This document shows positions 4,248 to 52,853 of a stretch of DNA of 64,000 nucleotides, piece by piece; position 1 is the stretch's first letter, and the number at the start of each line of letters is the position of its first letter. Both the position numbers and the translations under genes were made by a program. Source of the DNA: Rhyzopertha dominica (lineage: Eukaryota; Arthropoda; Insecta; Coleoptera; Bostrichidae); NCBI GenBank assembly GCA_025024175.1, contig QCXZ01000137.1, positions 8,494,001 to 8,558,000 of the forward strand. Direction: 5' to 3'. The notes under the pieces were generated by a model that saw nothing but the letters and a program-made list of their open reading frames with translations, searched no databases and was not told where the DNA came from.

Positions 4248-7200
4248 ATGCGCAACGAAATACTTTTCTCGTTCGCCCTCTTCCTGAGTGCATCTTCAGG
4301 TAAGTAACAAGCGTCGCCACTAAACGATTTTAAACGCTCTCTCTGTGGACCAGAATTGTATTCAACGTGCACAACCCCCAATCACGAAACTGGAACATGC
4401 AAGCCGGTGAAGGCATGCACACCAGTAAAGGACGCCATAGCAACGCTCAATTCGAGTGCTATCGAATTCGCTCGCCAATCTGCATGCGGATTCGATGGGG
4501 AACAACTCGTCTGTTGTGGCTCGGTCGGTTACTACAGGTAACAATACATTTTAGGTATAAGCTGATGGTGAATGTTATTTGAGGCAGAAACTACTTGGAA
4601 CGCCATCTGTTCCCTTGAGATTACCTGAATGTTACCATTACTATATTTATTTATTTCATGAACAGGTAGGGCAGCTAAGTTATTATGGATTAAAGTTTTA
4701 GTCTTTTGGGGATAGACCGAGTCTGCTTTTGGAATAAGGTAGTGTTTCGCCCGCACTTGTAAGGGGCTTCATCACGATAGTTAAAGAAATTGCACTTAGA
4801 CCCATTGTTAATACTATTGACTCAGCCACTCTTAACATCGCCAAATTCTTAGCGTATCTTAAGAAGGACTACACGGGAAAAACATATTCATATGTTGTCA
4901 ATTCCAAACACTTTGTAAGTATTTTATTGAAACTCGTCCTCGGCCCAGAAAACATTCAAGTTCCAATTATTATCCCGAGACAATCAGCAGCCTTAGTAGA
5001 AAAATGTCCCACTTCAAAGTATTTCACATTTCATGGTCAATTCTACCGACAACTTTCTGGTACACCTATGGGTTCCCCATTATCACTAGTAGTGGCAAAC
5101 ATGTTCATGTAAGCTTTTGAACAAATTGCTTTAGAGTCATTAGACCTGGAACCTAAAATCTGACTTCGTGATGTCGACCACACTTTCATTATATGGCCTC
5201 ACTGCTCCAATACCCTAACAACCTTCTTAGATCACTCTAATTCTCAACCTTTCGATATAAAATTCACGACGGAAATCGAAAGCAATATTTTTCTCCCGTA
5301 TCTTGATGTTTTTGCCACTCTTCTACTGGATGGTCGTTTGGGCCACCCCGTCTATTGCAAAGCCACCTTCACGGATCAGCACTTTCATGTGCCTTCTCAT
5401 CACCATACGTCACAAAAACGCTCTGTCCTACATTCTTTTGTTAACCGTGCTATATCAATATCTGAACCGGACAAACTTCGAAGTGAATTGCAACACTTAC
5501 CAGGGGCGCCGAATCCATGGGGGCTCGAGGGTTTCAGCACCCACGAGAGGTAAATTGTGAGAGCGGAGCACCCAGGACCAAATAGACATCATTCCACAGC
5601 TTGATTAAAATATGTAACTGTTTTACTTTACGTGATTTTGAATCCGTGTTAGTCATTTATATTAAATTTAATACACCAATAATGAAAGATGGCGAATATA
5701 CATGTCAAACAAATTAAAAACTGCTTAATCGATTTGTACCATAAATTCAGACTGACTTATCACAGATATAAGAACGTACTGATTAGTCAAATTTATCAAG
5801 TTAGAACGTCTACAGTGCTGCTGGATTACGTAAACCTACCCAATCTTATTTTAAAATTTCTTCTGAAAGCAAGTACGTGTAAATGTTGCTCAGTTTTTGT
5901 ATATCTGATTTTTTATTCATTGCACTGGTATTTTGATTTATGCAAACCATTTCAAGTATTAATCTCTTGTTTGTATTACTTTCTTTATCCAAAATTTTGA
6001 CATTATTCCAGTTAATATGATGTCCATTGTTGATTAATATTATGCCAATCTATTACTATTAACCTTCCATTGTGATGTCTGTCCTGTATACTTACCTTCA
6101 CAATCCCCACATTCCAAACAATATATAACATTTGCTTGATATTTTGTAGGTATTTTAGTGTTGCGAGTAATGTTGAGCAATTCTTTTTGTTCTTAATTGC
6201 AATTTTTATGTTTTCATTTTTAAACGTTCTGATTAATTTTGTTGTCAATCCAGTAATGTTTCGTAGGGATCCATACCTTCCATGTACTACTGTTTGTAGG
6301 TTATTGTCAAGATCATGATTTACCCTCTGCCCCATGTCATCCTGCATACCACCGTTATTCACCGTTAGCGTGTTTGTGTTACGTGAAGTGTTGATAAATC
6401 AGTAGCAGAATACAAGATTTTATTTATCATCGTTTTCGGGATGAATTGTGTATTAATAAATATTTTAAAGTTTTTAAATTTTTCTCAATAAGTTGTGAAT
6501 GTGATCTTATAATGATTTTATGTATCATCTGTTTTACAAAGTTCATTTTAATTCGTGACGAATGATCTGACAAGTAGTTTATATACCTCCCCGATGAAGT
6601 TGGTTTCCGGTACCAATCCAGTATTATATTTTTATTTTTTCGTATGGCTTTGGTGTCCAAAAGGGTACTCCACATTATACCTCTCGTTCTCTTGTGAATT
6701 TTATATACTGATCATAGGCGTTGAACACAGTTTCTATTCATAAAAAAATTTGTTGATGACTTAATAATGCTGGTACCAACAAAGGCACTAGAACCAATCT
6801 AGCATTTTTGTACTTCTTTTTCCCTCTTATGTATCTTTCTATTTATATCACACATATTTCCGTTCCAGAGCATATGTACCTATTGAGTTCTATTGGACGG
6901 ATTCATAGATACGGTTTTCACGATTATGTTAGCATGAGCACCCACAGGGTTTTCTAAAAGCCGGCGCTCCTGACACTTACGCATCAGTCTGGCCAACACC
7001 AGGTCTAATAACCGTGAGATACAATTTGCAATTAATCGTCAACTTTACTCCAAACCGAAAGTAACTCTCGAACTCCCTGTCACAGACAGAATTGACCAAA
7101 TTCTTAAGGAACAACTCATCCCCTACCTATTCTTCCATTTCCGTAGGACAAAATAAATCTTCTGCCTTCTAGAGATATTTACAGCATCCCTTGTTCATGC

Positions 7201-23839: not shown

Positions 23840-25162
23840 CGAGGCATGTTTTTTAAGTAAGTACCGTTTTGCGATTCCGCCGCCGCAGCGCTACGGTCGG
23901 CGTTCCGCGCATGCGCGCTGGTTACCTACATCTCTTGTCTACGCACTGACGCCATTACAGTTTGATTTTTCATTGTATACGTTGTTTACTGAGTGTTTAA
24001 GATGCCTCCGACAATCGTGAGTCCCGCCGATTGTGAAGTACGGGCTGTTATACGATTTCTTAGTGCTAAAGGCGTAAAACCGATCGATATTCATCGTGAG
24101 ATCTGTGAAGTTTACGGACAAAACATTATGAGTGATGGAATGGTAAGGAAATGGATGAGGGCATTTAAAGATGGCCGCACAAATGTGCATGATGAAGAAC
24201 GGAGTGGGCGTCCTTCGGTCGTTAATGAAGATTTGGTGCAGAAAGTGAACGAAAATGTGAGAGAAAACAGACGCTTTACAATTTCATCATTGTGCGACTG
24301 CTTTCCTCAATATTCTCGTAGTGTTTTGTATCGCATTGTGACCGAGAACTTGAATTACTGGAAATTGTGTTCACGTTGGGTTCCGAAAATGTTGACGGAT
24401 TTGCACAAAACCCAACGTTTAGGCAGTGCATTGACTTTCCTTGAGCGGTACCACAATGAAGGTAAAGATTTTTTTAGACCAAATTGTTACTGGTGACGAA
24501 ACATGGGTGGCCTACGTCACACCAGAATCGAAACAACAATCCATGGAATGGCGACATTCATCATCACCCAAAAAGTGAAGTTTAAGCAAACAATTTCTGC
24601 CCGGAAAATGATGTGCACAGTTTTTTGGGTCAGAAAAGGAGTATTGCTAATGGAGTTTCTGCCTCGTAATGAGACAATCAATGCAGCGTCTTATTGTAAG
24701 ACATTGAACAATCTGCGTCCAGAACAAAAGACGTGGCAAGTTGAGTAAGGGTATCGTTTTGCTGCATGACAATACCCGTCCACATGTGGCTAATCGGACC
24801 AAAGATCTCATCAAATCTTTTAAATGGGAAACTCTAGATCATCCTCCATACAGCCCTGATCTGGCGCCCAGCGACTACCATTTGTTCCTGCACTTGAACA
24901 AACACCTGGGTGGTCAGTGTCTTCAAGACGATAACGAAGTCGAAACATTAGTGATACAGTGGTTAACAAGTCAGGCGGCAGAATTTTATAAGGAGGGTAT
25001 TCAAAAANTGGTGCCACGTTATGACAAGTGCCTCAATATTCACAGAAATTATGTAGAAAAGTAGATTAAGGTACAGGCTTTCATGTAAGATAAAATTATT
25101 GCCATATCTTTGCACGTCTTTTTTTAATTCCAAAACGGTACTTACTTAAAAAACATGCCTCG
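23840..25162 (+). mobile_element. mariner transposon with perfect 32-bp terminal inverted repeats
   Basis: The ends begin CGAGGCATGTTTTTTAAG and are identical inverted repeats (23840-23871 and 25131-25162). TA is duplicated on both sides (23838-23839, 25163-25164). Length 1323 bp is usual for mariner. The single gene inside encodes a frameshifted transposase. Identical ends with a broken gene suggest a fairly recent insertion, either of an already defective copy or followed by quick decay. Confidence 0.93.
24002..25064 (+). pseudogene. mariner transposase, frameshifted
   Basis: The N-terminal part (24002-24468) has the paired helix-turn-helix region, with RFLSAKGVKPIDIHREI and DGRTNVHDEERSGRPS. 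The catalytic D,D34D triad is visible: TGDETW at about 24490, HDNTRPH at about 24769 and YSPDLAPSDYHLF at about 24850, with 34 residues between the second and third Asp. At least three frameshifts are present, in the T-run near 24470, the A-run near 24575 and near 24715. One N lies near 25010. Final stop at 25062-25064. Not functional as sequenced. Confidence 0.92.
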
Positions 25163-26858: not shown

Positions 26859-26969
26859 CTGATAACTGTATTGGGTTAGGCTTTCACGACCAGCATTCAA
26901 ATGATTGCATCTTCCGGGCTGGGTGGCAGCAGCCGATATCTCCTTCTTCTTCTTCTTCTGCTGTCTGCA

Positions 26970-27004
26970 GACGTTTCGCCTATTACTGTGCCAGGCATCT
27001 TCAG
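26970..27004 (-). ncRNA. Hammerhead-like motif with intact CUGAAGA and GAAA
   Basis: On the - strand: CTGAAGA, one extra T, stem II GCCT/AGGC, then GAAACGTC. Core nucleotides CUGANGA and GAAA and a GUC cleavage triplet are present. The ACGU between them could only form stem III in a dimer. The extra base between the core and stem II is unusual. Confidence 0.5.
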
Positions 27005-27081
27005 TGGCGAGCTAGTGATCGCGGACGTAGACTGTTAACGTGTTCATCGCAATGTCTACGTCTAGTACCACGAGCTCACCA

Positions 27082-27116
27082 CTGAAGAAGCCTGCCAAAT
27101 TACAGAGCGAAACGTC
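27082..27116 (+). ncRNA. Hammerhead-like motif, + strand partner
   Basis: CTGAAGA, one extra A, a stem (GC-CTG against CAG-A-GC with a bulged A), then GAAACGTC. It faces the - strand motif at 26970-27004 in the same inverted unit. Confidence 0.45.
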
Positions 27117-27759
27117 TGGAAAGAGAAGAAGAAGACTAAACTACGGTCATCCAGCCCGGAAGATACACATCATCAAACTGATAACTGTTAAAATGTATAC
27201 AAAAATATTGCAATATTTAGAGAAACATAAATTTTGGGTATCAACAGAAGCAGCAGCAACAACAAAATGTTGAATACCTTCCTGTCCAAACAGTCGTTTA
27301 CTTAATTCATTAAAAAAAAGACCAAACACTCTTATCTGTTGTTTGTTTATAAGTAAACTTTCCTTCAGTGAACATCTACTTAGTATAGGTATCTCCTTCT
27401 TCAGTCGTAACGAGAATCAAGAATGTCAATGGCAAATTTTCAATGTATTATGTGAATGTCAAATTCTAGAAACAAACCCACACGCACTGCATTTCCTCTT
27501 CCGTCACCGGTTCGCACGTTTGACGCTTCAAATTTCCTGCCTGGCATCATCGGAAATTTTCGGAAAACTTCAGCACCGACGACCGCTCGTGTTTACTAGG
27601 CGATTATCAATAATAAAACGATTAAGATGATCTAACAAAAAAAGATGATTTGATTAGCAGGTCGAATCCACGTTTCCCTATAAAAACTAGCACCTGACAT
27701 TTTGACTGGTCAGTTGGCGGCGAAACGCTATAATGTTTACGGCTAGTTATCATTCCTAA

Positions 27760-33800: not shown

Positions 33801-36800
33801 TAATAAGCCTAAATCTGAAACTATTTATTTCAGTTTTATCGCATAGGAAAAATAACTGCGTGCCCTTACCAGAATGTCAGTCTGCCGTAGATATGTTGCT
33901 GAGCAAGCCATTAGACCCTTTTACATTAAAAATGCTGCAAATATCCCAGTGTGGAAGGACTGAAGAATACATCAAGGTTAGATGTGAAGAGATTGAAATT
34001 CCTTGCAAGACACCAAGCAATCGGAACGGTAAGATAACAAAGAAATTTCTATTTAGTTATTTTTTGTTTAACTCATATATTGTACATCCCTGGATAGATG
34101 TAACAAGAGGTAAGTATAATAGACAAAAATAATCAGTTTTGGAATAGCATTCCTACTGCTTGTAAGTGTACAGAATTTGAGCCGATTCTGTGCTATATAG
34201 GGTGTTTTATAAACATCAAAAGTGCAAATATACCACCAGTCATATACTTTATTTTTAGGATATCAAAAATCTACTAAAAATTATTTGGATTACCTGTTTA
34301 CACCCCCATATCACGTTTCAATTATTTTTCGAAATTTTATATTATTTACTTTATTTTTAATTTGTTTTTATTATTGACATTGCTGTCCAATATTGTCAGT
34401 GCTATTTATTGTATAAAATTGGTTGAGAACTGTCACTTACCAGTCATGAAAACTGAAAAAAGAAATGGCACATTCCATAAAAAATATATTGTGTATTGGT
34501 GAAAACTTGCTAATATAAGAATCTAATAAGGTTGTTAATATCAACCTTCCAAACGCTGTCTGTCGAGTATTGGTACTGGTAGCGTAGTTAAAATCAAAAG
34601 AAAAGATAGAAGAATATGATGCAAACGGTGTTGGAACTATAACAGTTCGTGGAGAGATCATGTATTACCAATGCTTGAGCTTACCAAAATATACCGAAGA
34701 GACCAGTACAGTAGTCTCTTATATTAATGCACCAGCTTATAAAATTTGCAAGAAACTCAGTCATTTAGTGCCAGAACTGATTGATTTTAGGCCTCAATCT
34801 TCAGTAAAAGAGACCCTCAAAAATTAAAAAAAAAATCCCTCTCTAGTAACGCAAAACTATTTTCATTTGATCACAAAAACTTATTTACTTCCATACCAAT
34901 TAGTGAAATGCAAGATGCTTTACAAAAACATATCATTTAAGCGAGCTTAAGTGACCTAGCAAAGAATGAGTTGACTATGTTATTAAACGAAGGCTTGAAT
35001 CAAAATTATTTCCTATTTAATAACAAATATTACACACAAAAGGTTTGTTTGCCTGTGGATTCCCCGCTATCTCCTTTTTTGGCTGAATTATATATGGACA
35101 ATTTTGAGACAAACATATTAAATTAAAAAAAAATGTTGGAAACGTTCACGCATGTAGACGACATTTTTTTGTATTTGAACAGGTACACTTCAAACATTAG
35201 ATCGATTTCTAAGTTATTGAAAAAAAATCAGACAATAGATTAGACTTTTTAGATCTCACCATAACCAAACATTTTATCTTAAATCCTATTCAAAAACGGA
35301 AAAATATCGGCAGTCCATCAATAAATTATATAGGGACATTAATGACAGAATTACAAAATATCTTACAAGTAAAAACAAATTTTCCATCTCCATTAATAAA
35401 TTTGCATAGTTAGTAAACAATAAAGGAAAGATAGAGAGAACTAACAAAACGCTGAGATTTTTGTGTTTGCTGTACTGTATTTTACTCAATACACAATTTG
35501 CAAAATACCAAGTGTTGTTTTTTACTAATAGTTAAAAAAATGTTTTATTTGTCTCCACCACAACGTTCAGTTTAAGTTAATAATCCGTTCAACTGTTGTA
35601 AAATTACAACCAAAATGTAACCTTAGCAATAAACTTTGCTTTACAGGAACTTGCGTTCCCATTAAGAGCTGCCCACCATACGTCAACATCCTGAAGATGT
35701 TCAACGTGAAAGACCCCCTCACCAAAAAGTATCTCCGAGAATTTCGCTGCGACAGTCCGGAAGGACACATCCACATTTGCTGCCCGGAAGTAAAGTTCGA
35801 AGTAAACGACAGGTCCTTCGTTCCGCAACCTGAGTTGGAACAATGTGGAGTGCACATGAGCGACGACAGGATAGTTGGAGGTACGGTGGCGGGAATTGAC
35901 GAATTTCCCTGGATGGCGCTTCTGGAATACAGGTCGACTAACAACAGATTAGAACCAGCTTGTGGTGGGAGCCTGATTAACAGTAGATACGTGGTGTCTG
36001 CAGCTCACTGCGTTGATACGGTCTTTTTGCAAACAGTTGGATATAGAAGATTGTAAGTACATATGTTCTAACAGAATTACAGGTCCTTCACAGAGACGGG
36101 TGTTAATTGCCAGTAATGGGATAGTGTCGCCAACAATTATTATTCTTGCAAGTATGTTGGCGTTAGAATTGAGGAAACTGAGTTTTAAAATAACAAACTA
36201 TTGAAAACTTGTTATATAAAAATTCAACAAATTTAGAATAAAATAAAACTAATACCGTTGTTTACCACATCTATTCCCAGGCCATGAAATGCTACCATCT
36301 TAACCAATAGCCATTGTTTTGTAACATGAATAAAATATTTCCCTGCAGTAAAAGTAATAATGCAACTTCTAGCCGAGAAGTGGTGCCTTCACTATCATAA
36401 GTTAAAGGTCAATTAGATTTTTACATTTCTAATTTGTGGTATACCAATCTATAGTTCGTATATACTAATATGCAAAGGTATAAAAGAGTTCATTTTAAAA
36501 TGATATATTTGTGTACGTTTTCTTGTCTTTATTAAGCTTATTATAATTAGAAGTTATAACGCACTTTCTCTTTTTTATGCAGTTCACGCAATTCTGATGG
36601 TCGTAAGCATAGTACTGGATTGAAACGTTTGCAACTCTCGTATGGCCGAGTTAAAAACAAAAAAATAGCCAATATTCCAGGAGTTAGATAAATTAATATC
36701 ACATTATCCAAATGGACCTATCGTGACGCTACATCAGCAAAAAAAGCCATCACATTAGCAATAATAGTTTGGCAATTAGGGAAAATACTTTGTGCTTCAA

Positions 36801-39800
36801 AACTATAATAATGGGTGTTGCATGAGTACTAATATTAATAATTTAATGTGCATGACCCTGCCATAATTAGTGGAATATTTGGACAGTTTATATCTGCAAG
36901 ATCAGCGTGACAAAGCTTGAAACACAAAAATGTCCTAGGATAAGAGGTTTTTTTCTTGTTAGTTCTTAGTGAGACAAATACTCGTAACGTCAATGTCAAA
37001 TTTGATTAGTCAGAGGAAATTTTAGTGGCGAAGCTTTTAACTCATTATTTGCATCATTAATTGAGTTTAAAAAATATAGTTTTCCAGATAGTCAGAAATA
37101 TGAAACATCACGCTTTTTCTTTACATGCATTTAATGAAATTTCTATCGCATCAGTTCTCACAGAATTTCTTTAAAGTATTTTCTTGATTTCGCTTCTGTA
37201 GAAATTATTTCGTGAAATGTTGATGAATTAGCCAGATCATGTTCTATGGAAAGCATAAATATATTTTTGTGTTCTTTCTCGGTTTGTTGCTTATTCACAC
37301 GAGGAGGTAGTAACATGAAGGTTAAATTCTAGCGATAGGTCTTCCAAGAGGCACATTTTATTTAAATTTGTGAACAATAATTGAGTTTAAAGTCTAAAGC
37401 TTTCCATTTTATCTGTAAATTTCTAAGTATCTATATTTTTATTGTATATATGCAGTTGTTTTTTGTTTCTGTCAAATTTTCTATACTTATAAGCTAATGA
37501 AAATTTTCCGTTTAAAAATCCAAAATTTTTGCTGGGCTATTTAGCGAAGCAAAGCTTTCTTCCATTTGCTGTATAATGTAATCCGTAACTCCCAACTGAG
37601 AAAATCTTAATTGTATGCTGGAATCAATAACAGTAATTCGTCACTACGCTGTTCTGCCATTTTGGTGTTTCTGTTCACCCATTTCTGGGAAATCGGGCAG
37701 TAACTACTTCTGCCTTTTCCTCCTGCAACTTAAAATTTTCTATTAAAGGCACAAAAACTTTTTTCTTTGAGATTTTGAATCGCTTAATGAACCTTTAATC
37801 ATGCCTTCTCCTCTAACAATATCATTTTGTTTATGTTGCAAATTCAAGTTAACGGATTTTAGTTAAAATTTGTTCCCCGAGAGATATAATAGTATTTTTT
37901 TAAGTATTTTTAATAACACTTTTGGCTGTACGAATGCACACAAGTATTAATTCCTGACACTTATCGCTTCAAACAAATTTATGATTCCAACAAATTANAG
38001 AAGATTCACTGTTGTTTTTAATTGAGCTTGCAATATTTGACATCGACCAGATGATCCGACTACCAAGTATAGACTTGTTAAACAATCCAAAAGTTTTTTT
38101 TTTAATTTTTGTTGATACTACAGCAGGTTTTTTCTTGAAAAAATATAACTTGGCTGGCTGTCTTCAGTGAACCACTCGGTTCTAAGAGGGGCAACTTTTA
38201 ATGAAAATACATTATTATTTTTGTCAAGTCGCCAGTTCAGAGGCCAGATATTGTCGTATTTAACTACAATCACGTTCCCACCTTGACATGAGGTGAATTA
38301 CTACTTAATTTTTGCCATATTTGGATGATATTCAGATATTCGATATATCGTTTCCGATAAAATTAAATACTTGATTCATAAGCTCGTTACACACGACTGG
38401 TGAGCGTACTTAACAAGTCTTCGACCTGTAAAAAATTTAGTGGTGTTAATGTAAAAAATAGCAGGAGTATTTAACCAGTGTGCTCACTCTTCGTAGGCAC
38501 CATTGATCTCTAGTGGGCTCAGATTTTCGATAAATGTTTTTAAGCTTAGCAGAAATCTGCATTCTTATTGGTTACAGCACTGGCACCACGCGTTGTTTAC
38601 AATAAACAGTAAATTCTAGGCTATTGCCAGCATGGGCAATTTTACTTCAGCGTTGCCTGTATTTGTTATGAACGGTATTTTATGAATTTTATTATTATTA
38701 GTTTTCAACAAAGTAAGATATACGTATAAATTTTTAACTGGTGAAACAAGCTATAAGAAAAGATTTGGTTTCGGCTAAGATAGATGACGCGTTAGTAGGC
38801 TTACTGTTAATTTAGATAATTAAAATACAAGCTTTGGCTATTGTCACTTGTGCGTTGGTAGTGTAGTAGTATGCACATTGGAGCGCCATTCCAGCGGCCC
38901 GAGTTCGATTCTCGGCCGAAGCTAAATCTTTTCCTATAGCCTATACTAAATTGTTGTAAAGGATTAGTGACTACTGTGTGCAGGCAGTCTACATGTATGT
39001 TATGGACCTATGGGCTAATACTTCTGGCAGTATGGCAATCATGATCGTTGACAGATATGAAAGATTATGGACGCGGTTTTAAGTGTTTGTGTTGTGTTTT
39101 TGATTTGTTTTCACCTGGACTGTTCTGTGATTTGCACTTACGTAGATAACCATGCCAATACATATCTGAAAATCCTGTCAAAATTACACATATGTGTTTG
39201 TTTACACTTTGCTAAACACGAGCGCGTGCGTTGCCAGGGTAACGAGCAAGCCCCTAGTATATGTAAGAATTTAGGATGGCAATGCCATCTGTCAGCATTA
39301 CACTGACATGATGACAAAGCCACCTAGCTGTCTTAACGGGTACTACTTCCTAAAGAAAGTGACCTGTAGCCTGACAAATTGGCATGCAACTGCATACTTC
39401 AATTTGAGAGCAGGCCCCCACGTCACTTTTTGCTAGCGGGCAAGAACCGACATACATTAAAATGCATGTCTATGCTGTGCTGTCTACACCTCAACCAACT
39501 GCAGATAGATCTATTTCGCTGTCATTCCAGCTCATCAGTGCAGTTTAGGTCTAGTGTAGACAGCACAGGTCAATTCCTTTAGGAAGTAGTATCCGTTAAG
39601 GCAGCTAGGTGACTTTGTCATCATGTCAGTGTAATGATGACAGATGGCATTGCCATCCTAAATTCTTACTTACATCATACCATTGCTGTGGTATATAAGC
39701 AAAACCAGTTCTATGCCGTGCTGTCTACACTAGACCTAAACTGCACTGATGAGCTGTAATGACAGCGAAATAGATCTATCTGCAGTTGGTTGAGGTGTAG

Positions 39801-42800
39801 ACAGCACAGCATAGACATGCATTTTAACCAATAGTATGCTTGCATACTGCTGTAAGTCATCAGTTGGTGTGTAAATTTAAAAGAAAAAAGAGGAGCGTGA
39901 TTTTACTGTTTCCTTTATTATACGGTGTAAAAGCTTCGAGCGGCCACAGTTAACACAGTGAACTACAGTTTAGTAGCGCTTCAATATATGCAAATTTAAT
40001 ACAGTGGAAAATTCCTCATATAATATAACTGGGTTACCTATCATCTTCGTTAAATGATCTTTTCTACTGTTTTAATACCTCCTTCCTAAAATCTATCGAA
40101 ATATGCAGCCTCTGGAAGATTAAAGGTCCAAGTAATGCGATTTCGACCAGCTTGAAATATTTCATATTTCAGAAAGTTGTACAGTTCAGCTAATTCATTT
40201 CAGCAGTATATGACAGAACATGGTCCTTTACCGTATAAAACCTTTGCATGTGTTTATATACAATCTGAAACCAGACAGTGCTAACGCCGCAATCAGCAAA
40301 TGAACAAAAAATCCCTAGATTGCCACGAAAAATCACCTCTGGAGCAACCACAGCTCATAATAACGTCTTCAGCCAGGCAACTGCTCCTTTATTCATACAG
40401 TACGCGGCCTAGACGGATGCTCGCTACGAATCTTTGCCAAGCCACTTCCAGAAACAGTTTCAATTATGGATGACAATATTATTTACAGAGAGAATGTAAT
40501 CCTCGGGGAATACGACACGCGGAACGAAACGGACTGCGTCGAATTCGAAACGGGGAGACAATGCGCTCCCCCAGCCCGCAAATTCAAAGTAGACGTCTAC
40601 ATAGTCCATCCAGGATGGAGGCGGAATTTAGACGACGACATCGCTCTGATAAGGCTGGATGAGCAGGTGCAGTTCAACGGTAAAAGCCGCGTCTCCATGT
40701 ACGATGCGAAATGACAATTTAATAAATGTTGCAGAGTATATAAGGCCTATTTGTTTGCCGCTGGCGGGTATAAACTTGACGAGAGATGAGCGCTTCCTGG
40801 TGGCTGGCTGGGGACGAACGGAAAAAGGTAAGTGACTCGCCTAACTTGTAGTTTTTGCCTTAATGGAATTTTCCTGGAAGAAGGGATTTAATGATATAAT
40901 CGACTTCTCAAATAGCCTAGATATTATGATCTTATGTAGTGTAAATCAAGCTGAGAACTCAAGTATGATCAGTGCCGTAGCTATCATGTGGCAACTGGGG
41001 CTATAAATCCTGCCCTCCCGTTCGATCTTGCAAATTTTTTCAGGAGAGAGCATAACATTATTAGAAACAGCCACGATAGGAGAAGTAGTAACAGAGTATA
41101 ACCAGTGAAGCCTTTAGAAAGCATTTAGATCTAGAAATATTTCATACGTTATCGATCAACAAATAAACATGGTTAATTTGTGAAAAAAATTAATGAACAA
41201 AAAGAAGGTGTTTTGAAAAAGGAGTGGCCTCTCAAGCCTCAAACGCGAATATCGCCTACTTGCATCTAGAAGCGAGAGAACCGGCTACCGACTGCCTGTG
41301 GATATTTTACAAGAAATTCTAACTTAGGAAAACTAGAAATATCATTATTCTGAGAACTTTGTACTTGTAGACAAAATCTAGTTGTTCGTAGCATTATACG
41401 TGTCTTAAGAATTAAATTAACAAGAGTTTCATATTTCCGTCTAGCTGAACTTAAAATGGAAATATGTAAATATATACCTAGGAGCAGTAGAACAACATTT
41501 TTGGGGCTGAAAAGCGCAATGAGTTATAGGTTCTTAAAAAGGAGATTTATGAATATGTTCCATTATAAAAGTTATAACTAAACAACTAACAGCTATTTTC
41601 ATATAAATCTGTCTTGCTACCAAAATAGCAGGTCCCGTTTGGATGGATTTAAAACTAATTAACTTTTTTTTAATGCGTGAATAATCTGTTGTGGTGTGTA
41701 AAAGTTTAAATTACTCTTGGAAACACTGGTTTACTTCCTTATAGCAGGTACCTATATAAGAAAAATGAAACTGTGTTTGTACTTTTAATGTTATTGTAAT
41801 ATCTACTTATGAATACATGGTTACTTAGCAAAATATTATTATTTTGAATAAAACCGCCAAATGAAATCGCAGCTAGCAAATACAAGGCGAAGGAAAGAAT
41901 TAGTTCGTTTTCTCAACAAAGACAGCTTCTCAGTGTAATTAGTGATATGAACAATACATAATATAACTGTAATGCACATATTCCATAATTCTCAGTTATT
42001 CAGTGCACTCAGAGCCTTTACTTCTTGGGTCTATCTATCATTTTCCCAACAACATATACAGGGTTCGCCACTTAAAACTCTCAAGGCTCGTATTTGCAGT
42101 ATTTTTTTAGGTACAACCTTAAATTATGTGTCAAATTGTAAGTCTTCTTAAACTCTTTAAAAATCGCATTGTGAGTGTCCAAAAATTTATTTGCCGATTA
42201 TGGTATTTTAAAAATACAGTTAATTTTTGTAAATATTTTTTACCTTACCCCGTATAATAAATATTGCTTCATAGTTAGATGCAGACTTTTGTCTTCTTCA
42301 ATTTGTGTTATTACAACGTATGCATATTTTTTATTTCTTCTTAATGAAAAACAAGAAAAACGCGTCGCCGTCATATTCTATAAATAGGGCTGTTCACAAT
42401 TTTTTAAATGTTACTTTAACATCTCATTACGGTACAAATTAAACCTACATACCCATCGCTGCACATAAAACCCCAAAATTTAGTGTAACTTAAGGTTGTA
42501 CCTAAAAAATAATGAAAATACGAACCTGGGGAGTTTTAGATGGTGGACCCTGTATATGTCAAGTCAATTCAGTGTTTACTGTTTCTATAGTCTACCACTT
42601 CTTTCACCGCCTTGAATAATTTAAAGTCTATGATGTTCTACACATCCCTAATTTACTACCTTAAAATACAACTCTGAAAATGTCATATGAAATAACGTAG
42701 TGGTTTCATTCTAAACGCAATGTCAATGGAAATGGTAGTAAAGGATATTCTAATTAATTAGCCGTTTGTAATTAAATGAAGCAGACGTTCACAAACTTTT

Positions 42801-44715: not shown

Positions 44716-46689
44716 TCACCGGCCACTTTTGGTACTAGCATCCTTAGATTTCCTAGCAGGAATGGTAGTAATGGTTCTAGGAACCTGCGAGCGCGCTAGG
44801 CTAGCCCATGATACTGGCAGCTCCGATCTGGCCACTCCGACTCCCCTCAAGCCTTCAAGAAGATCCACGATTGCAGGTCCTTTGGTTACAGGTGGGTTAG
44901 GTTCGTTGCGGATTTTATCGAAAATCGAAAACTTTCTTTCATCCTGCGGTCTTAGGACACCGTTTTTCTTGAGCCCGAAGTAGATGTGTTCGAGTAGTCC
45001 GTTGCTCCTGACGAGATAGTCGCGCTGAGCGAGTCTTTGCAGTCGTTCCTTCTCGTCCGCTTCCACGATCATCTGAGGCTCAAACGAGCTGATGCTGCTC
45101 AGCGGTGCTGAAGGAATGGAGTGCTTGGTACGAGGCGACTCAGATCTGATTTTGGAAGTAGGCGGCGTCGGCTTGTTGGTTATTCTCTTGGAAGCCTCGA
45201 GCTTAGCGCGCAAATGCATCTCGTCTCTTAACGCCATTTGCGCGCTTTCTCTAGCTCTACTCGCTGCTGTGTCGCAATATAGAGATCCTTGGCCTTGGTT
45301 GAAGAATTTCGAATAAGTGTGGTCTGCCGAGGGCAACGGATAGACCAGTCTGAAGTTGCCGCGATTACACATTTCGTGCCTGTAGTATTCAGTGAAGGAT
45401 CGTCCGTCGGTTGCCGGTGGTGGCGCGTCTTTGTTCATCCCGTGCAGAAGCCTCTCCCTCACCCTCTTCTTGTCTTCACGCATTATCTTCCGTTTGTCGC
45501 AGATGTCCATGTTGAGCATTGCGAACATGTCGTGCAGGAGGCCTTCCTTAACTTCGCAATCCAAAGCCGTGTCAGTGTGGAAGCTGGGCGAGTGATTTAT
45601 CTCCAGGATTTGAGGATTTAGGCGTCTATCCAGGAGGATGTCTGTTCCCAGCAGCTCACAGCAAGCGGGTATCACATCGTGGTTGGGAAAGCACGCAGAG
45701 TAGCTGTGTTTCAAGACAGGCCATGCACTGATGATGGTTTTGATAATGACGTCGTCGATGCGGTGCCATAGCTTGTCAACGTCGTGGCCTAAGCTACGCA
45801 AGTACCCGTTTAACCACGACAGCTTACGTTTGCTGCCTCCTTCATTGTCCAAATTGTAAGTCCTGCTGTGCTTGTTAACGGCGTAATTGGTCAAATGCAT
45901 GAACACGTTCGTGATATTCACGCCAGATGGTTCCTTGTATCGACTTGTAGCAAACCTGCATAACCCTTCTTCGTATATGTATATTCTTAACGGATCACAT
46001 GATGTAATAAGAGTGTAGACTCGTAAATCGAATTTATAGCCGTCAATAAGGAACGGTCTGGATATGTAAACTTGACATATAACTCGATCTGAAGGTTTCA
46101 CTTCTTTCAAATTTTTCGTAATGAGGATGCCCCTACCCTGACTCCCAGCATCCGGCTTTAATATAAAAGTCTTGTTCTTTCGGAGCCTGCTGTACGAAAG
46201 CACTTCTCCTAGGTCAGCTGGGAGGCACCAAGTTTTAGGGAAGAAGTTATAATCCTTCGGAAATAGACGCAACATCCTGTTGAGGTTCCTAGCCAGCAAA
46301 TCTTTACGACAAATTTCCAACATCCCAGGAAAATGGTTGATTTTCTGATAGCGCTTCATTTCCTTACACCTCTCTATTGAAATAGATAAATCAGTCCAGT
46401 ACATGTTCCACGTGTCGCCCTCCGCTACTTCTTTGTAGCCGAATTTTGCTGCCGTCCTTCTGATGACGTCGTATCGACAGTTGGTCAAACATATCGTAAC
46501 GGCTCTTTTGCGCTTCTTCCTACCCTTCGTAGAGTCGCTGCGTACGACCTCCGGTTTGATATGCGGTGTTGATGGCTTCCGTGTCGTGGTCGATCTTGAC
46601 GTTTTATCTGTTTCTGTTTCTGAGCTCGAGTCTGAGCTGTCGTCGTCAGCTTTTATCACGGGCAAACTAGTAATGGAATAGTCTACCAT
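44716..46689 (-). CDS. TTLL6: Tubulin polyglutamylase, TTLL6/13-like
   Basis: A single uninterrupted frame of 657 codons from ATG 46689, in good context (ATCCATGG); the frame extends only six codons further to a GTG directly after an in-frame TGA. It has an acidic/Ser-rich N-terminus, then a basic stretch (GRKKRKR, about 55-62). The TTL ATP-grasp domain (about 65-400) shows ICRKDLLARNLNRM, FPKTWCLPADLGE, KPDAGSQGRG (about 178-187, nucleotide loop), YKFDLRVYTL, HLTNYAVNKHS and ILEINHSPSF (metal-binding Glu/Asn, about 362). Next comes a basic microtubule-binding-type helix region (KRKIMREDKKRVRERLL) and a long low-complexity tail. TTLL6/13 enzymes add or lengthen glutamate chains on tubulin tails, mainly in axonemes. 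Assignment to TTLL6 rather than TTLL13 is by overall resemblance. Convergent with gene 3, with 278 bp between the stop codons. Confidence 0.9.
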   Translation of the reverse strand: MVDYSITSLPVIKADDDSSDSSSETETDKTSRSTTTRKPSTPHIKPEVVRSDSTKGRKKRKRAVTICLTNCRYDVIRRTAAKFGYKEVAEGDTWNMYWTDLSISIERCKEMKRYQKINHFPGMLEICRKDLLARNLNRMLRLFPKDYNFFPKTWCLPADLGEVLSYSRLRKNKTFILKPDAGSQGRGILITKNLKEVKPSDRVICQVYISRPFLIDGYKFDLRVYTLITSCDPLRIYIYEEGLCRFATSRYKEPSGVNITNVFMHLTNYAVNKHSRTYNLDNEGGSKRKLSWLNGYLRSLGHDVDKLWHRIDDVIIKTIISAWPVLKHSYSACFPNHDVIPACCELLGTDILLDRRLNPQILEINHSPSFHTDTALDCEVKEGLLHDMFAMLNMDICDKRKIMREDKKRVRERLLHGMNKDAPPPATDGRSFTEYYRHEMCNRGNFRLVYPLPSADHTYSKFFNQGQGSLYCDTAASRARESAQMALRDEMHLRAKLEASKRITNKPTPPTSKIRSESPRTKHSIPSAPLSSISSFEPQMIVEADEKERLQRLAQRDYLVRSNGLLEHIYFGLKKNGVLRPQDERKFSIFDKIRNEPNPPVTKGPAIVDLLEGLRGVGVARSELPVSWASLARSQVPRTITTIPARKSKDASTKSGR

Positions 46690-47629
46690 GGATGCTATAG
46701 GATACACTCATTGCAGAATTTTACAGGGCGTGTTTTCGAATGTGCTAATTTTGAGGGAGCAGTATGACATACAAGTTTCTAGTTTGACACGTACTAAGCA
46801 CTTGTTACACTGTCAATGTGTGGGGCTCGCTGTTGCTGTCACCGTGACATTACAATAATTTCGTGAGCAGAGAATACAAATATTGGGGTCGTAAAGGGCT
46901 TAGGTGACTAAACACGTAAATATTTCTGGGATACCAAACGGGCTACTTTGCAGGTTTACTAGAAAGATTCACAAACAGTTATGTGGTTAGGTGAATGGGG
47001 ATTTATGCCAAAATTGTTTCACAACATTGTTACAATTGAGAAAATTACCAGATGTCTCCTTTGATCCAAACTTTATCTACTGTATCGTGTCACGATTGAT
47101 ATCTAAGATTACCTAGGTATATCTTTTGCATTTCTCTTTTATTTTTAAATTTCTGCTAGATAAAATTTATAATGCTAACTAAAAATCGGACAATTAGTCG
47201 AGAAAGGTTTTCATCTCAAAATTACCGACTTTCTCATTAAACTGATATTTTAATAACACCCCTGATTTTAGCTCCTATTTTGAATGCACTTTTTAATTCT
47301 TCTTCAACTAGCAATACCTAAAATGAAGGGCTCTCGACATGTTTCAACAGTTCATCAATTTAGTAGGCTTTTGCTCATTGAGAACAATAAAAAGATTCCT
47401 TTTTAGTTCAAAAGCCAAACATAGGGACACCACAACAAAAAAAAAGTGGTCAAAATTTTATCCAAAATGGAATTTATAAAAAAAGCAATGGCTTAATAAA
47501 AAAACTTTTAATTATTTCTTTAGACTATAGTAGGTATAGACGAATGTTTTACCATATAAAAATTGTTATAAACTCCGCTATACACGTTTCTATAATATGC
47601 GTTATCACTCATTTAGTACGAAAATGAAA
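46690..47629. other. Upstream of TTLL gene, nothing recognised
   Basis: This stretch should hold the - strand promoter of the TTLL gene. I see no clear TATA box. An upstream exon cannot be excluded. Confidence 0.4.
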
Positions 47630-47878: not shown

Positions 47879-48474
47879 GGGTACGACATATATTAGTTCA
47901 TGTGTAAAAAAGTATACTTCAGTACCATTAGTATTTATTCGTTCTGGATTAATGAATTGATTTTGAATACTGCAGAACACCAATAGTACCTGCAATAACC
48001 CTATATAACTTCTACTAAATTGCACAGATTTTCTTTATTGCCAAAATACCAGTTAATTATGTAAAAGGCTTGCATTTACTGAAGTACTTTAATAATTGCT
48101 TGGAAAATGNGNAATATATAAACAAATACATAAACGTTTGAATGATCCTTATAAAGATTAGAAAATGGCATTTAAATGAATCACACATTTATGATGTACC
48201 CAACTGAAAACCACTGTACCTTCATGAAGTATTTCAGTCTTGTTATGGACCTTGAGTGATTTCTTTAAATAGACTGTATTACATGAAGAATGTCGTTACT
48301 TAGTAATGAAAGTTATTGCATTTATGAAAGATGAAAAAGAAAATGTGGGACCTATAGTTCCTGTGGAATCTTGAAACGTAGTGCTAACGCACTGGATGCT
48401 ACCGAACAAATGCGAAATAAGGAGATTTGATTGCGTTTATAGTAGGTAGATATATTTGTGAACAAGTGTTGTCA

Positions 48475-48679
48475 GTTCTGACCAGGATTTGAACCCGGAC
48501 CTCTTGATTACTAGTCAAATGTGCTAAGCAATGCATCATCAGATGGCGTTCGGTAGCGTTACATTTTGTAAACTGGGGAGGATATACACCACTCTGACCT
48601 GGAATAAGAGCCTGATGACGCAGCGGTTAGCACATTTGACTAGGAATCAAAGGGTCCCGGGTTCAAACCTGGTCAGAAC
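48475..48679. repeat. Head-to-head pair of tRNA-like sequences
   Basis: Right copy, + strand (48611-48679): A-box-like GACGCAGCGGTTAGCAC, perfect anticodon stem TTTGA/TCAAA with loop CTAGGAA (anticodon AGG), and B-box GGTTCAAACC. Left copy, - strand (48475-48541), is the inverted relative with loop CTAGTAA. Acceptor stems are degenerate. They are probably tRNA-derived SINE heads in inverted orientation rather than tRNA genes. Confidence 0.55.
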
Positions 48680-51293
48680 TAACAATAATTTTAATAAAAT
48701 ATATATCTCCCTGCTATAAAACCAATTAAATCTTCGTATAGTCAGTATATACAACTTTTTGTTTTCCTGACGAAACTTGAATTTTTCCAAAGAGGGAAAT
48801 AGATGCACATGACAGCATGACTCACTACTTCCCTACTGATCGTCAAATAACGGTGATGGAAAAAGATACATCATTTTACACAGAGAAGGGAGTTTTGTGA
48901 AAGTGAAAATGAAGATGCTTGTTTGAAACAAATCAAAAAATTAGCACGACATATTATTTAAAAATGGATTTCTGAAAAATTGCTACCACTACTAGAAGAA
49001 CTGTTTTACGGATAACGCTTTGTATCATTCAGAATTAACTAAAAAACCTTGTTGAAATTGCTTAAATAAATACACCATATCTTGGATAAATGAACACAGC
49101 ATTTATTCAGAAAAAAAATAACTAAAATAGAAGTGAAAATCGGCGCAAAAGAGGGATATGTACTATACTAATTATGCAGCAGCCATGGTCATTTAGCCCC
49201 TGGTACGAATAGCACCTTACTAATGTGCCAATAATTACTACGACAGAGACAACGAACAAAACGGGTTTGGTGATAAGACAATTAACGAAATGTTTGCGGA
49301 GGCAAGCTCTTTCAACAAACGGTTTGCACCACTGCGAACAGTTAATAGTAGTAATCATTTCCTTTCTTTTCATTCTGTTTGATATCTCTGACAGTTAAAA
49401 AAGTATTAAGGAAAACTTGGTTATATAATTATTACCAATGGTTATTCAGTTCACATTCTGGTTCTATCCTGCAAGAATCTGGAGCTCAAATATATCAAAT
49501 AAAATGTGGTCAACATGGTTAAGTATTTCTGCAAAAATAATTTAGTAAGCTTAAAATTTAAGCAGGCCAGTGATAAGACCTCGGGTAAGACAATACTGTT
49601 GCGATGAAATAATACTGTCAATGGCTTAGAAATGTATATCACGCACTGGAACAGTATGCTGTAGATCTGCGAGAAAAACAAGGAGGGAATTGGTACTACA
49701 AATCTTAGAAAAGATCTCACTCTTCGAGAATACATTAATATTTGAAAACCAATATCAATTTTTCTAAATATTTTAGGGGGAAATGTGCTAACATTATGAA
49801 TGCCATAGAACAAAGGAAAAATATATGACTAGTAATACGAATAAGCATTTACACCTTGCCACTTTATAGCTTTTACATGCTGAATGCTGATGAAAAATTT
49901 TCCTTCAGTATAGGCGAAAATAAAATTTATATAGCCGAAAACTATAATGAATAACGAAATCGCAAGTATTACAGATGTTACTGCATATTTTTTTTAAATT
50001 ATAATTAATAATAAACGAATGTTTACTAGGCACAAATTAATTTAAACAAAACTCTGATAAGGTAATGTCTTCTTACAAACTATTTAGGAAGATTACATTT
50101 TACAAAGAAGTTTTATAAAATATACCAACCAAATAAANATTGCATTTTAGAATTACTGCTAATTTGATAACAGAATGGAACGGTCAAGTATTGTATATAC
50201 CCAACAAAGGAACNTGAATAATATGAGTCTGCAAATTTAGTTTTGTGAAATATTTGTGAGCGTCTCTTAATTGTATAAAATCTTCTAACTGTAATAAGAA
50301 AGAGCAGTCATGATAAATGTTGTTGCCCCCATTAAATTGTTTTAAGTGCATGGATACACTTTTGAGATCATTACCTAACGCTATTGGCACTTCATTTGGT
50401 AGATAAATATCAATGCCTTCTATAAATAGGATTAACAAAAAGGTTGAACATAATTTACAGAGGTGGATGGAGCACAGGCTAATTAATCGGTGGCTTTTAA
50501 CAATTAACTCTATTATTACATTACAATATTACACGTTCAAGTGCATTAGTCATCAATATATAAACTGCACCAGACACGTAACACGTATTTCCTCGAGTGG
50601 TGGAACACCGATGACGCAGTGGAAAAACTGCATTTCTGCTGCGCACTCGCAACAACAAACGCATTAACGCCAAGGGAAAAAGGCACGAGCACGTTGCGAC
50701 CATCCATCTCGAGGATGTAACAATTTCGGCAGCATCCACCCTCGCGACCCTTTTGCAAATTATTATCGGGCGATATTTGGGAAACTGTCAGGACATCTAT
50801 TTACGATGTTCATTCGAATATTTTATGCCGATGTAAAACGAGCATAAACCACACCATAAAGTGCGGAGCTGCTTTTCAGTGCGCATATTAAATGTTGCAA
50901 CGACTCTATTTTTATAACCTATAAACGCAAACTCGGAGACGTTGATACAATGACGGAACGTGACGGGGCAGAGTAATCTTCCGAAATTTCATAGCCCCCG
51001 AAGGCGAATTCGAGAAAGTTAACGCGTTTGCATAGGATATACCGTATATCGGTGTATATATTTTGTCGATGTTTTGAACCGCAGAGCAGTCACTGCTTTT
51101 TCGCAATAGACAACAACATAACTTTTTCTTTAGTTTCGCGGTACATTTACATAGATCTTACAATCAGTCAACCAGCAGTCGAGAATTCACTACAGTGGAT
51201 TATAGCAATTTTGTTAAACAAAAATACTAATCCACTTTTTTCCACTTCTTTAATAATGTGGCCATCAGCCATCAACAATGCTAAAATATACTA
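48680..51293. other. Intergenic with a GC-richer block
   Basis: Mostly AT-rich with Ns at 50138 and 50214. The block 50560-51060 is richer in GC and CpG and has motifs such as TTTTTATAACC and CCATAAAG (Cdx/Abd-B-like). It has no convincing coding frame and could be a conserved regulatory region. Nothing else recognised. Confidence 0.35.
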
Positions 51294-51301
51294 TATGCAG
51301 T

Positions 51302-52853
51302 GCAAAATATATACATATAATTGCACAGAGTACCACTTATCAGGTTAGGTTATATAATTAAAATCTTTATTGATATTATAAAAGGTTTAAGTATTTCAGA
51401 AGGTGATATTTTAGATAGTTTTGACGTGGTTTCTTTATTTACGAAAGTACCCATTCCTGAAGCGATAGATATCATCAAATCCAAGCTCAAGAGCGATCCC
51501 CTAGGTGACACGATTATCTGAACATTGTTCAAAATCTACTTATTTCTTATAGAACGATAATTTTTACGAACAAAAATCAGGTGGTGCAATGGGTTCACCC
51601 CTAAGTCCTGTAGTAGCCAATTTGTTTATGGAAACTTTTGAACAGGTAGCGATAAACAGTTTAAGCCAAAATGTTTGGTATAGGTACCTAGATGACACTT
51701 TTGTTATTTGACCCCACGATATAGGAGAGTTAGGTAGGTTTCTAAATCATTTGAACAGTCAAAATCCTGACATAAAATTTACTATAGAATTAGAAAGCAA
51801 TGGCAGTTTACCTTTCTTGGATGTCCAAATTTACAGAATAAACACTGGACACAAGGTTTACAGAAAACCAACACCCACAGACAGATATTTACATGCCACA
51901 TCTCACCACCCTCCCTCTCAAAAGAATTGTCTTATAAGGACGTTATTTGTTAGAGCACGTAGGATCTCAGACGAAAATTCTTTACAAAACGAAATATGTC
52001 ATCTTAAATCAGCGCTAGTGAGAAACGGTTATAGCAATAAGAATATTTGGGTCAGTTTTTAATAAAAGTGCTCATCCAAATCAAGTAAATTCTCAGCCAG
52101 GACAAAGTAAATTGAAGTTGAGTTTGCCTTATGTACAAGACCTTTCGGAGAAATTAAAGAGGATGCTTAGAAAACACGATATTTTAGTTGTTGATAATAC
52201 GTATAATAATTTAGATAAAATTTTAAGTTCTACTAAAGATAAAGTACATTTAGAGAGTGAAGGTGTTTACAAAATTACTTGTTCTTGTGGCAAGTGTTAC
52301 ATAGGTCAAACTAAAAAAAATTAGGTACGCGTTTGAAATAACACATACGTGCTACTAGGCTACAATAGATAGATAAATCTTCCGTAGCTGAACACTCATA
52401 TTTGACTAAACACATGACTGACTTTGATAAAACAAACAAAAATATTATCACAAACGTATAATAAAGAAGCTATAGAAATTTGTAGGAATACTAATAATTT
52501 TAATAGGGATTGTGGAAGTTGTGAGTTAGGTGACATTTGGAATGCTATATTGTAGTTATCTTTTATCAAGCAGTTCGTGTATATAGTAGGTAGATAGTCC
52601 CCTTTTCGTCGGTAAGTTCTTTTTTATCAGGTTGATTCTATGACGTCTCGCTTCCTTGGTAACTTGTTTATTTACTTTCAAAATCTTGTTTGAACTTGTG
52701 TCAGGCAAATTTTGAGGTTCTTCGTTTTTGACAAAGATTACAGGTGTAATCGAAACGTCAGACTAAAAACTTTTTGTCAGTGTTTTCAAGAGACAGCGGT
52801 CTGTCCGAGAAAATATTATCTTATATTATGGACGCTGAAAGCATTCAACCTCG
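51302..52853 (+). mobile_element. Penelope-like element PLE-3 (RT + GIY-YIG + terminal unit)
   Basis: The RT core reads ILDSFDVVSLFTKVPIPEAI (from about 51408), GGAMGSPLSPVVANLFMETF, YRYLDDTFVI (catalytic DD at about 51690), LPFLDVQIYR, VYRKPTPTDRYLHATSHHPP. The nuclease start GVYKITCSCGKCYIGQTK is at about 52262. Stops at 51519, 51708, 52060 and elsewhere inactivate it. The N-terminal part is missing. The right end (52690-52852) matches the unit at 47643-47878 and has a hammerhead-like motif (52728-52760). TATGCAGT at 51294 and 52854 may be an 8-bp target duplication. Confidence 0.85.
52728..52760 (+). ncRNA. Degenerate hammerhead-like motif at the PLE-3 3' end
   Basis: TTGACAA, one extra A, hairpin GATTAC-AGGT-GTAATC, then GAAACGTC. 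Same form as at 47706-47737 but in sense with the PLE-3 coding strand. Confidence 0.4.

Follow-up and report, generated by a model that had tools for sequence, protein, structure and literature searches.

An inverted hammerhead pair in a beetle protease intron as the probable product of one retrozyme insertion

An intron of a serine protease gene of the beetle Rhyzopertha dominica carries two hammerhead ribozyme motifs in opposite orientations, and the question raised by this locus is how such an inverted pair came to stand there and whether it serves the gene. The pair was analysed within a stretch of 64,000 nucleotides (assembly GCA_025024175.1, contig QCXZ01000137.1, positions 8,494,001 to 8,558,000 of the forward strand), referred to below as the window, in whose coordinates all positions are given. 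We propose that the pair is probably one insertion of a non-autonomous retrozyme of the non-long-terminal-repeat (non-LTR) type, which, judging from sequence, would have been copied from a circular or multimeric RNA by two-ended target-primed reverse transcription, and that it most likely sits in the protease intron as a passenger.

The hammerhead pair and the insertion that carries it

The two motifs, a structural detail of one of them and the surrounding intron lie as follows.

39718..39807, plus strand: type I hammerhead in gene-sense orientation, predicted cleavage at 39780^39781 (descriptor, fold, Rfam hit below threshold)
39477..39566, minus strand: type I hammerhead in antisense orientation, predicted cleavage at 39504^39503 (descriptor, fold, Rfam hit below threshold)
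39770..39779, plus strand: stem III strand ATAGATCTAT, a perfect 10-nt palindrome that, from the fold, could pair between two ribozymes
36053..40488, plus strand: host intron (4.4 kb) of the CLIP-domain serine protease gene, whose exons join in frame across GT-AG

Both motifs are canonical type I hammerheads by sequence, in inverted orientation, and self-cleavage is predicted for them: each has the core CUGANGA ... GAAA ... UH and three stems and is open at stem I, the CTGATGA of the core starting at 39746 on the plus strand and at 39538 on the minus strand. A descriptor combining the core with stems I to III matched these two places only in the window and had no match in 300 dinucleotide shuffles. 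Local folds reached -48.1 kcal/mol (z -7.4) and -47.9 kcal/mol (z -7.3), with the full three-stem hammerhead and its free core lying 3.6 kcal/mol above the minimum free energy (MFE) in both copies. Descriptor and folds agree with the positions, inversion and cleavage sites given in a preliminary description of this DNA, which had also placed the pair correctly in a protease intron (36053-40488; the gene has Pfam CLIP and Trypsin domains). Its hammerhead coordinates hold, while the whole feature proved larger, at 39263-39827. Stem I, described there as 13+7 bp, folds in the plus copy as 14+4+7 bp, a UA bulge included, and in the minus copy as 16+4+7 bp; stem II has 5 and 4 bp, respectively. Stem III, given there as 3 bp, consists of A-U plus 2 bp, with a GAUC loop and the palindromic strand.

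At the Rfam gathering threshold no hammerhead was found in the window pair. The best family below threshold was RF02275 (Hammerhead_HH9), with 29.0 and 27.7 bits against a threshold of 52, and E-values of 1.7e-4 and 4.6e-4 for the 3 kb searched, or 0.0037 and 0.0099 for the whole window. HH9 is an amniote intronic hammerhead, and the window pair likewise stands in an intron; its model has the same topology and scores best in Rfam, whereas the beetle copy is far below threshold and is a mobile repeat. Absence of a covariance-model hit above threshold had been named beforehand as grounds for rejecting the ribozymes, and is literally what was obtained. Since none of 20 loci of the same sequence family (see below) yielded a hammerhead at the gathering threshold either, these scores are taken to reflect a limit of the models and to be uninformative for this family.

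The hammerheads are parts of a larger structure, composed of two interlocking nested inverted repeats. Repeat A (39260-39367 versus 39565-39672) is identical at 101/108 positions and repeat B (39457-39566 versus 39718-39827) at 109/110, the latter value being at odds with the earlier view of the ribozymes as two diverged copies. The blocks X and Y enclosed by these repeats have no detectable likeness to each other.

39263..39827: whole retrozyme insertion, a minus run and a plus run of a 352-nt unit, delimited by end-to-end alignment with family copies
39263..39565, minus strand: minus run, blocks A-X-B antisense, starting inside at unit 47 (5' end) and finishing outside at the A-end (unit 350-352, 3' end)
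39565..39827, plus strand: plus run, blocks A-Y-B, starting inside at unit 245 (5' end) and finishing outside at the B-end (unit 155, 3' end)
39565..39566: point where the two runs meet head to head, with breakpoints that differ among family members
39368..39456, minus strand: block X (unit 156-246), at this locus only in the minus run, after B in multi-lap copies
39673..39717, plus strand: block Y; its TATATAA (39692), 26 bp ahead of block B, is a candidate promoter motif by sequence
39255..39260, plus strand: TAGTAT, candidate left target-site duplication (TSD), right copy at 39832-39837, unproven at this locus given a chance expectation of 6.3%

The background of TATAWAR in the window is about 1.1 per kb per strand. 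No open reading frame (ORF) of at least 110 amino acids is listed within the 565-bp insertion. On the strand of each hammerhead, one copy reads B-X-A and the other A-Y-B. The order A-X-B followed by A-Y-B is not mirrored, and the insertion therefore consists of two circularly permuted pieces of one unit; a single inverted duplication of one copy is ruled out by this order together with the family data. The two partial runs alone give the length of the unit (110+89+108+45 = 352). Its blocks stand in the order Y-B-X-A, with the hammerhead in B.

A dispersed family with two fixed ends

A search of the assembly that contains the window (479 Mb, 138 contigs) recovered dispersed copies of the entire 565-bp insertion. 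Thirty fetched copies had 86-100% identity, 100% being the window locus itself, and most of the 30 matches span all or almost all of 39263-39827 (query 24-588), at 86-95%. Of the 3043 or 2124 first-look candidates, 40 were scored per genome search, so that sampled loci are not copy counts, and BLAST hits of less than 75% identity were excluded from block mapping. The first of two samples (S1) was chosen with the whole insertion, by a 611-bp query having both A-end and B-end, and is biased towards the shape of the window insertion. It comprises 41 fetched loci (30 + 11), among which L030 repeats L028; the TSD count covers 39 of them, without L030 and L036 (which has no simple pair), and later counts also cover 39, without L030 and L040 (same flank as L038) and with L036 included. 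The second sample (S2) was chosen with one unit alone, and its 30 loci were reduced to 22 by dropping eight repeats (L042, L048, L052, L053, L056, L057, L058, L068), three of which (L042, L053 and L056) duplicate S1 loci with head-to-head A-end/B-end pairs. L038 (contig C64) and L040 (contig C136) have identical printed flanks and TSD word, one copy being 353 nt (one lap) longer; lap number changing after duplication, or assembly haplotypes, may account for this difference.

Block mapping of extended copies placed X and A after B, in line with a circular reading, and L017 contains two natural laps of a 352-nt unit that agree at 331/351 sites. The earlier suggestion that a small ribozyme-bearing element, retrozyme-like or derived from a Penelope-like element (PLE), had recently spread is supported by this dispersed family of 352-nt units, with TSD-like words at most loci examined; the genome search recommended there for other copies and tandem forms found both, including runs with several laps. 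The viral and prokaryote collections contained no exact match to the patterns used.

In S2, 16/22 loci are head to head, 6/22 have one orientation and none is tail to tail; one of the six, L059, has an 11-nt inverted B-end piece in its flank. The 39 run 3' ends in this sample lie at the A-end (21; unit 346 to 11) or the B-end (16; unit 149-166), except for 2 elsewhere, and 14 of the 15 head-to-head loci with both outer ends classified combine one A-end with one B-end (L065, counted among these 14, has an extra middle piece). TSD-like words of at least 6 nt surround 29/39 S1 loci versus 14/780 control places, and 14/22 S2 loci versus 6/440 control places; they vary in length from 6 to 14 nt. 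The cleavage site is crossed by 117/140 runs, and merged runs reach at least one lap in 43/125 cases, the longest measuring 1747 nt, or almost 5 laps.

Taken by itself, the window insertion could be a DNA transposon or miniature inverted-repeat transposable element with the B arms as 110-bp terminal inverted repeats, and indeed these arms end exactly in TTAA on both sides. Family insertions, however, end at the A-end on one side and at the B-end on the other, with junctions and lap numbers that vary, and the variable TSD-like words (6-14 nt) do not have the constancy of an element with fixed terminal repeats and a fixed TSD, which makes this origin very improbable.

The junctions between opposite runs overlap by at least 1 nt in 44/55 cases (median 3 nt), a measure that local alignment may inflate and that has no shuffled control. 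Opposite runs of the same locus are more alike than runs across loci (95.5% vs 94.7%; 54 loci, p 0.0005), and in a paired per-locus test they matched each other as closely as laps within one run do (28 loci, p 0.47). This test did not uphold a hint from block mean identities that laps of one run are closer than opposite runs. Identical breakpoints recur at sites with unrelated flanks (L017/L019/L038; L045/L046; L003/L009), which suggests preferred joining points in the unit. Locus pairs sharing a junction have 0-2 flank 12-mers in common, and microhomology hot spots fit these recurrent junctions better than inherited junctions do; no complementarity supporting the register of the junctions was found. 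A constant-sum rule was also considered for the junctions, as p+q in S1 had a mean of 291.8 (sd 9.8, 39 loci) and 0/20000 shuffles were as tight. The rule was dropped because it is a product of selection with the 611-bp query and is not kept in S2, where sums read by hand, without formal test, include 255, 385 and 376, and 287 at L064.

Two-ended synthesis and its alternatives

Since most of the runs cross the cut site, which a hammerhead-cut monomer cannot template, the template would have been circular or multimeric. Target-primed synthesis from both strands is indicated in turn by outer 3' ends that are fixed, inner 5' ends that vary and TSD-like words surrounding the whole. The following course of events is proposed. 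Hammerhead cleavage of tandem transcripts would be followed by closure into circles of 352 nt. A reverse transcriptase (RT), for which by analogy a PLE seems the likeliest donor, would open the target at positions staggered by up to about 14 nt, and complementary DNA (cDNA) would be primed from both target strands, beginning on the RNA at the A-end for one strand and at the B-end for the other. The cDNAs would then each roll round the circle for a variable distance, and their two 3' ends would be joined, often at microhomology. One fixed RNA 3' end would not be expected to yield the pairing of A with B. The family seems to preserve its insertion mechanism in its anatomy: each DNA strand has its own fixed 3' end, the number of laps and the 5'-5' joins vary, and TSD-like words flank the whole. 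Under this model one RNA should have two sites at which cDNA begins, and the partner enzyme should act on both strands of the target.

Several observations weigh against this reading. The two-run loci of simple A-end/B-end type in S1 (29/39) come from a sample biased by its query, in which both end types are present, and S1 also contains one B/B locus (L039) and 9/80 3' ends elsewhere; S2, picked by the full unit, favours long runs and has its own exceptions in L054 (two A-ends) and L071 (one unclassified end). No TSD-like word of 6 nt is present at 10/39 S1 and 8/22 S2 loci. The cleavage site shows no excess of 5' ends, with 0/80 in S1 (3.4 expected) and 3/39 in S2 (1.7 expected). Of 17 locus pairs with a common junction, 12 resemble each other slightly more than they do the remaining loci (by at most 1.5 points) and 5 do not, so that some junctions may be inherited. 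Long tandem transcripts could take the place of circles as template, L045 and L047 being homogeneous inside (99.7%) yet 99.7% like each other. As to the enzyme, published PLE start sites are adjacent, whereas the two ends of the beetle family are 155 nt apart, and two RT-like ORF fragments in the window are without a Pfam hit.

These fragments, at 4738-5553 and 51712-52062, are possibly PLE remnants, an assumption we base on their motif; DNA identity between 4999-5417 and 51520-51923 is 58.5%. A protein search with one of the fragments gave no scoring match.

The same family could alternatively have been copied from a linear multimeric transcript of tandem arrays, with head-to-head joins produced by twin priming as in long interspersed elements (LINEs). 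A same-orientation array of about 5 laps does exist (L047), within-locus runs in the youngest cases (L045, L047, L064) are not clearly closer than the nearest other locus, and LINE machinery could also account for 5' truncation of variable extent and for TSD-like words as long as 14 nt. A LINE usually has one fixed 3' end, though, and the beetle family has two, paired A with B in 14/15. The printed flanks, moreover, have no consistent poly(A) or microsatellite tail, but a TAG run stands at the B-end of L015 and L017 lies inside an ATT run. We regard this alternative as rather unlikely, though a serious one.

Two-ended synthesis from a circular or multimeric RNA can be set beside known systems. 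Repeats of animal retrozymes measure 150-450 bp and their RNAs, linear and circular, 170-400 nt (Cervera and de la Pena 2020, PMC7229834, main account). The beetle family resembles the animal non-LTR retrozymes outlined in that account in its 352-nt unit, in a type I hammerhead with short stem III, in tandem laps, in TSD-like words longer than the 4 bp given for plant retrozymes and in having, at the window insertion, no listed ORF of at least 110 amino acids; a unit of 150-450 bp with one such hammerhead, in tandem runs of up to 1747 nt, is what was found. It differs in its head-to-head pairs and two fixed 3' ends, the animal elements being presented there as same-orientation tandem repeats (PMC7229834). 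The satellite pDo500 of the cave cricket Dolichopoda is another point of comparison: the text of PMC2808323 does not contain the word "inverted", whereas the beetle family is inverted. A head-to-head rule for retrozymes was not met with in the consulted portions of PMC7229834, PMC7761336, PMC4918200 and PMC6155905 or in the titles and abstract openings of the related papers listed.

PLEs or other non-LTR elements have been proposed as mobilisers of animal retrozymes, partly from co-occurrence, in passages of PMC7229834 and PMC7761336. Inserts of the PLE Pen2a of Adineta are described in part of PMC3846280 as having an added inverted pseudo-LTR (pLTR), an optional tail at one end and a 9-bp TSD, and the enzyme of the Anolis PLE PAc, according to PMC11167929, extends both target strands in vitro and starts at two adjacent RNA sites. 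So far as these descriptions go, PLEs and the beetle family share an inverted terminal copy, a short TSD and two different 3' ends (with and without tail), as well as partial tandems, type I hammerheads and, on the PLE side, an enzyme acting on both target strands. The beetle insertions, too, are inverted and joined head to head, with TSD-like words and either of two 3' ends, features taken from the same descriptions as marking PLE-like insertions. PLEs as depicted there are autonomous with minimal hammerheads, whereas the beetle family lacks a coding part, its hammerhead has all three stems, and its ends lie 155 nt from each other; the 565-bp window insertion does not encode a telomerase-like RT, with or without GIY-YIG nuclease, by which membership in PLEs is defined.

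It is tempting to speculate that animal retrozymes act as the "SINEs" (short interspersed elements) of PLEs: a paired RT would hold one RNA circle at two fixed start sites and prime one cDNA per target strand, each cDNA would roll round, and the 3' ends would be sealed, such that nearly every insertion becomes a head-to-head A-end/B-end pair. This extension is offered tentatively, at somewhat less than even chances.

Selection, folding in the intron and neighbouring sequences

Conservation of the hammerheads had been taken to suggest selection for activity. The window copies are near-identical, and across 138 family copies no significant excess of core conservation was detected, so selection on the catalytic core is not supported: the 13 core sites diverge by 2.0% versus 3.1% for the rest of block B, a value reached by 1060/5000 random site sets, and the core is intact in 104/138 copies (75%) versus 67% expected. 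Variants common to at least 4 loci were not depleted in core or stems. That the pair consists of two unrelated or individually selected hammerheads is hardly credible: both cores are intact, but the family origin, the 109/110 identity and the lack of a significant core-conservation excess all speak otherwise. Individual copies, that of the window included, look neutral.

Compensatory changes are found at two stem pairs, A-U to G-C at 55/126 in stem I (10 loci) and G-C to A-U at 84/91 in stem II (5 loci), while controls with partners slid by 2-4 sites gave 0-2 such cells. Because of these two pair changes, each of which perhaps represents one event in an older subfamily, the hammerhead fold, to judge by sequence, was probably maintained in the family's source lineage; they have no bearing on the copy in the protease intron. 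Double stem changes in L012 and L031, which restore no pair, count against this reading.

A host role for the intronic ribozyme, itself compatible with a retrozyme origin, was considered from folding models and is improbable. The outer A:A' hairpin would shield the ribozyme from its antisense copy, and only the gene-sense ribozyme would get a brief chance of cutting during transcription. In folds of the growing transcript, the pairs of hammerhead stems I and II have probabilities of 0.80-0.99 when the transcript ends at 39788-39815; from end 39820 the 110-bp B:B' duplex takes over. The models attribute this folding window to the A:A' stem forming first: with the left A arm shuffled (four shuffles) the hammerhead was not favoured at any end tested, and removing and reordering blocks gave an agreeing result. 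On the minus strand the hammerhead lay outside the MFE structure at every end tested. Conserved intronic hammerheads are reported for amniotes in the part of PMC6155905 consulted. The folding window, however, follows from a head-to-head layout common to the family, and equilibrium folds of partial transcripts are not kinetics, structure exchange being fast in vivo by the account excerpted from PMC2817708. As modelled, the transient gene-sense window arises incidentally from this layout. More generally, an inverted hammerhead pair in a genome can be left behind by integration instead of signalling host function.

Further repeats and genes were noted in the window. A protein search with the TTLL6-like gene described below agrees with a beetle host: named matches as far as rank 65, from Ignelater to Gonioctena, belong to beetles, and Athalia, the first from outside this group, stands 69th among the 120 listed. 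The same intron contains a tRNA-Gly (GCC) gene at 38750-38940, the 3' end of which lies inside a 31-nt foldback. A second inverted pair of a small repeat is formed by head-to-head tRNA-like sequences at 48450-48542 and 48612-48704 (48450-48704 overall), with 93-nt arms 78% complementary and Rfam tRNA scores of 39.2 and 28.5 bits. At 26951-27135 an 82-nt inverted pair has CTGAWGA...GAAACGTC motifs recalling minimal PLE hammerheads; as minimal hammerheads these failed a scan for a contiguous stem II. Broken remains of a mariner-type transposase (HTH_48, DDE_3) lie at 23993-25064. Adjoining the protease gene is a TTLL6-like gene at 44716-46707 on the minus strand, with an uninterrupted stop-to-stop ORF of 663 amino acids.

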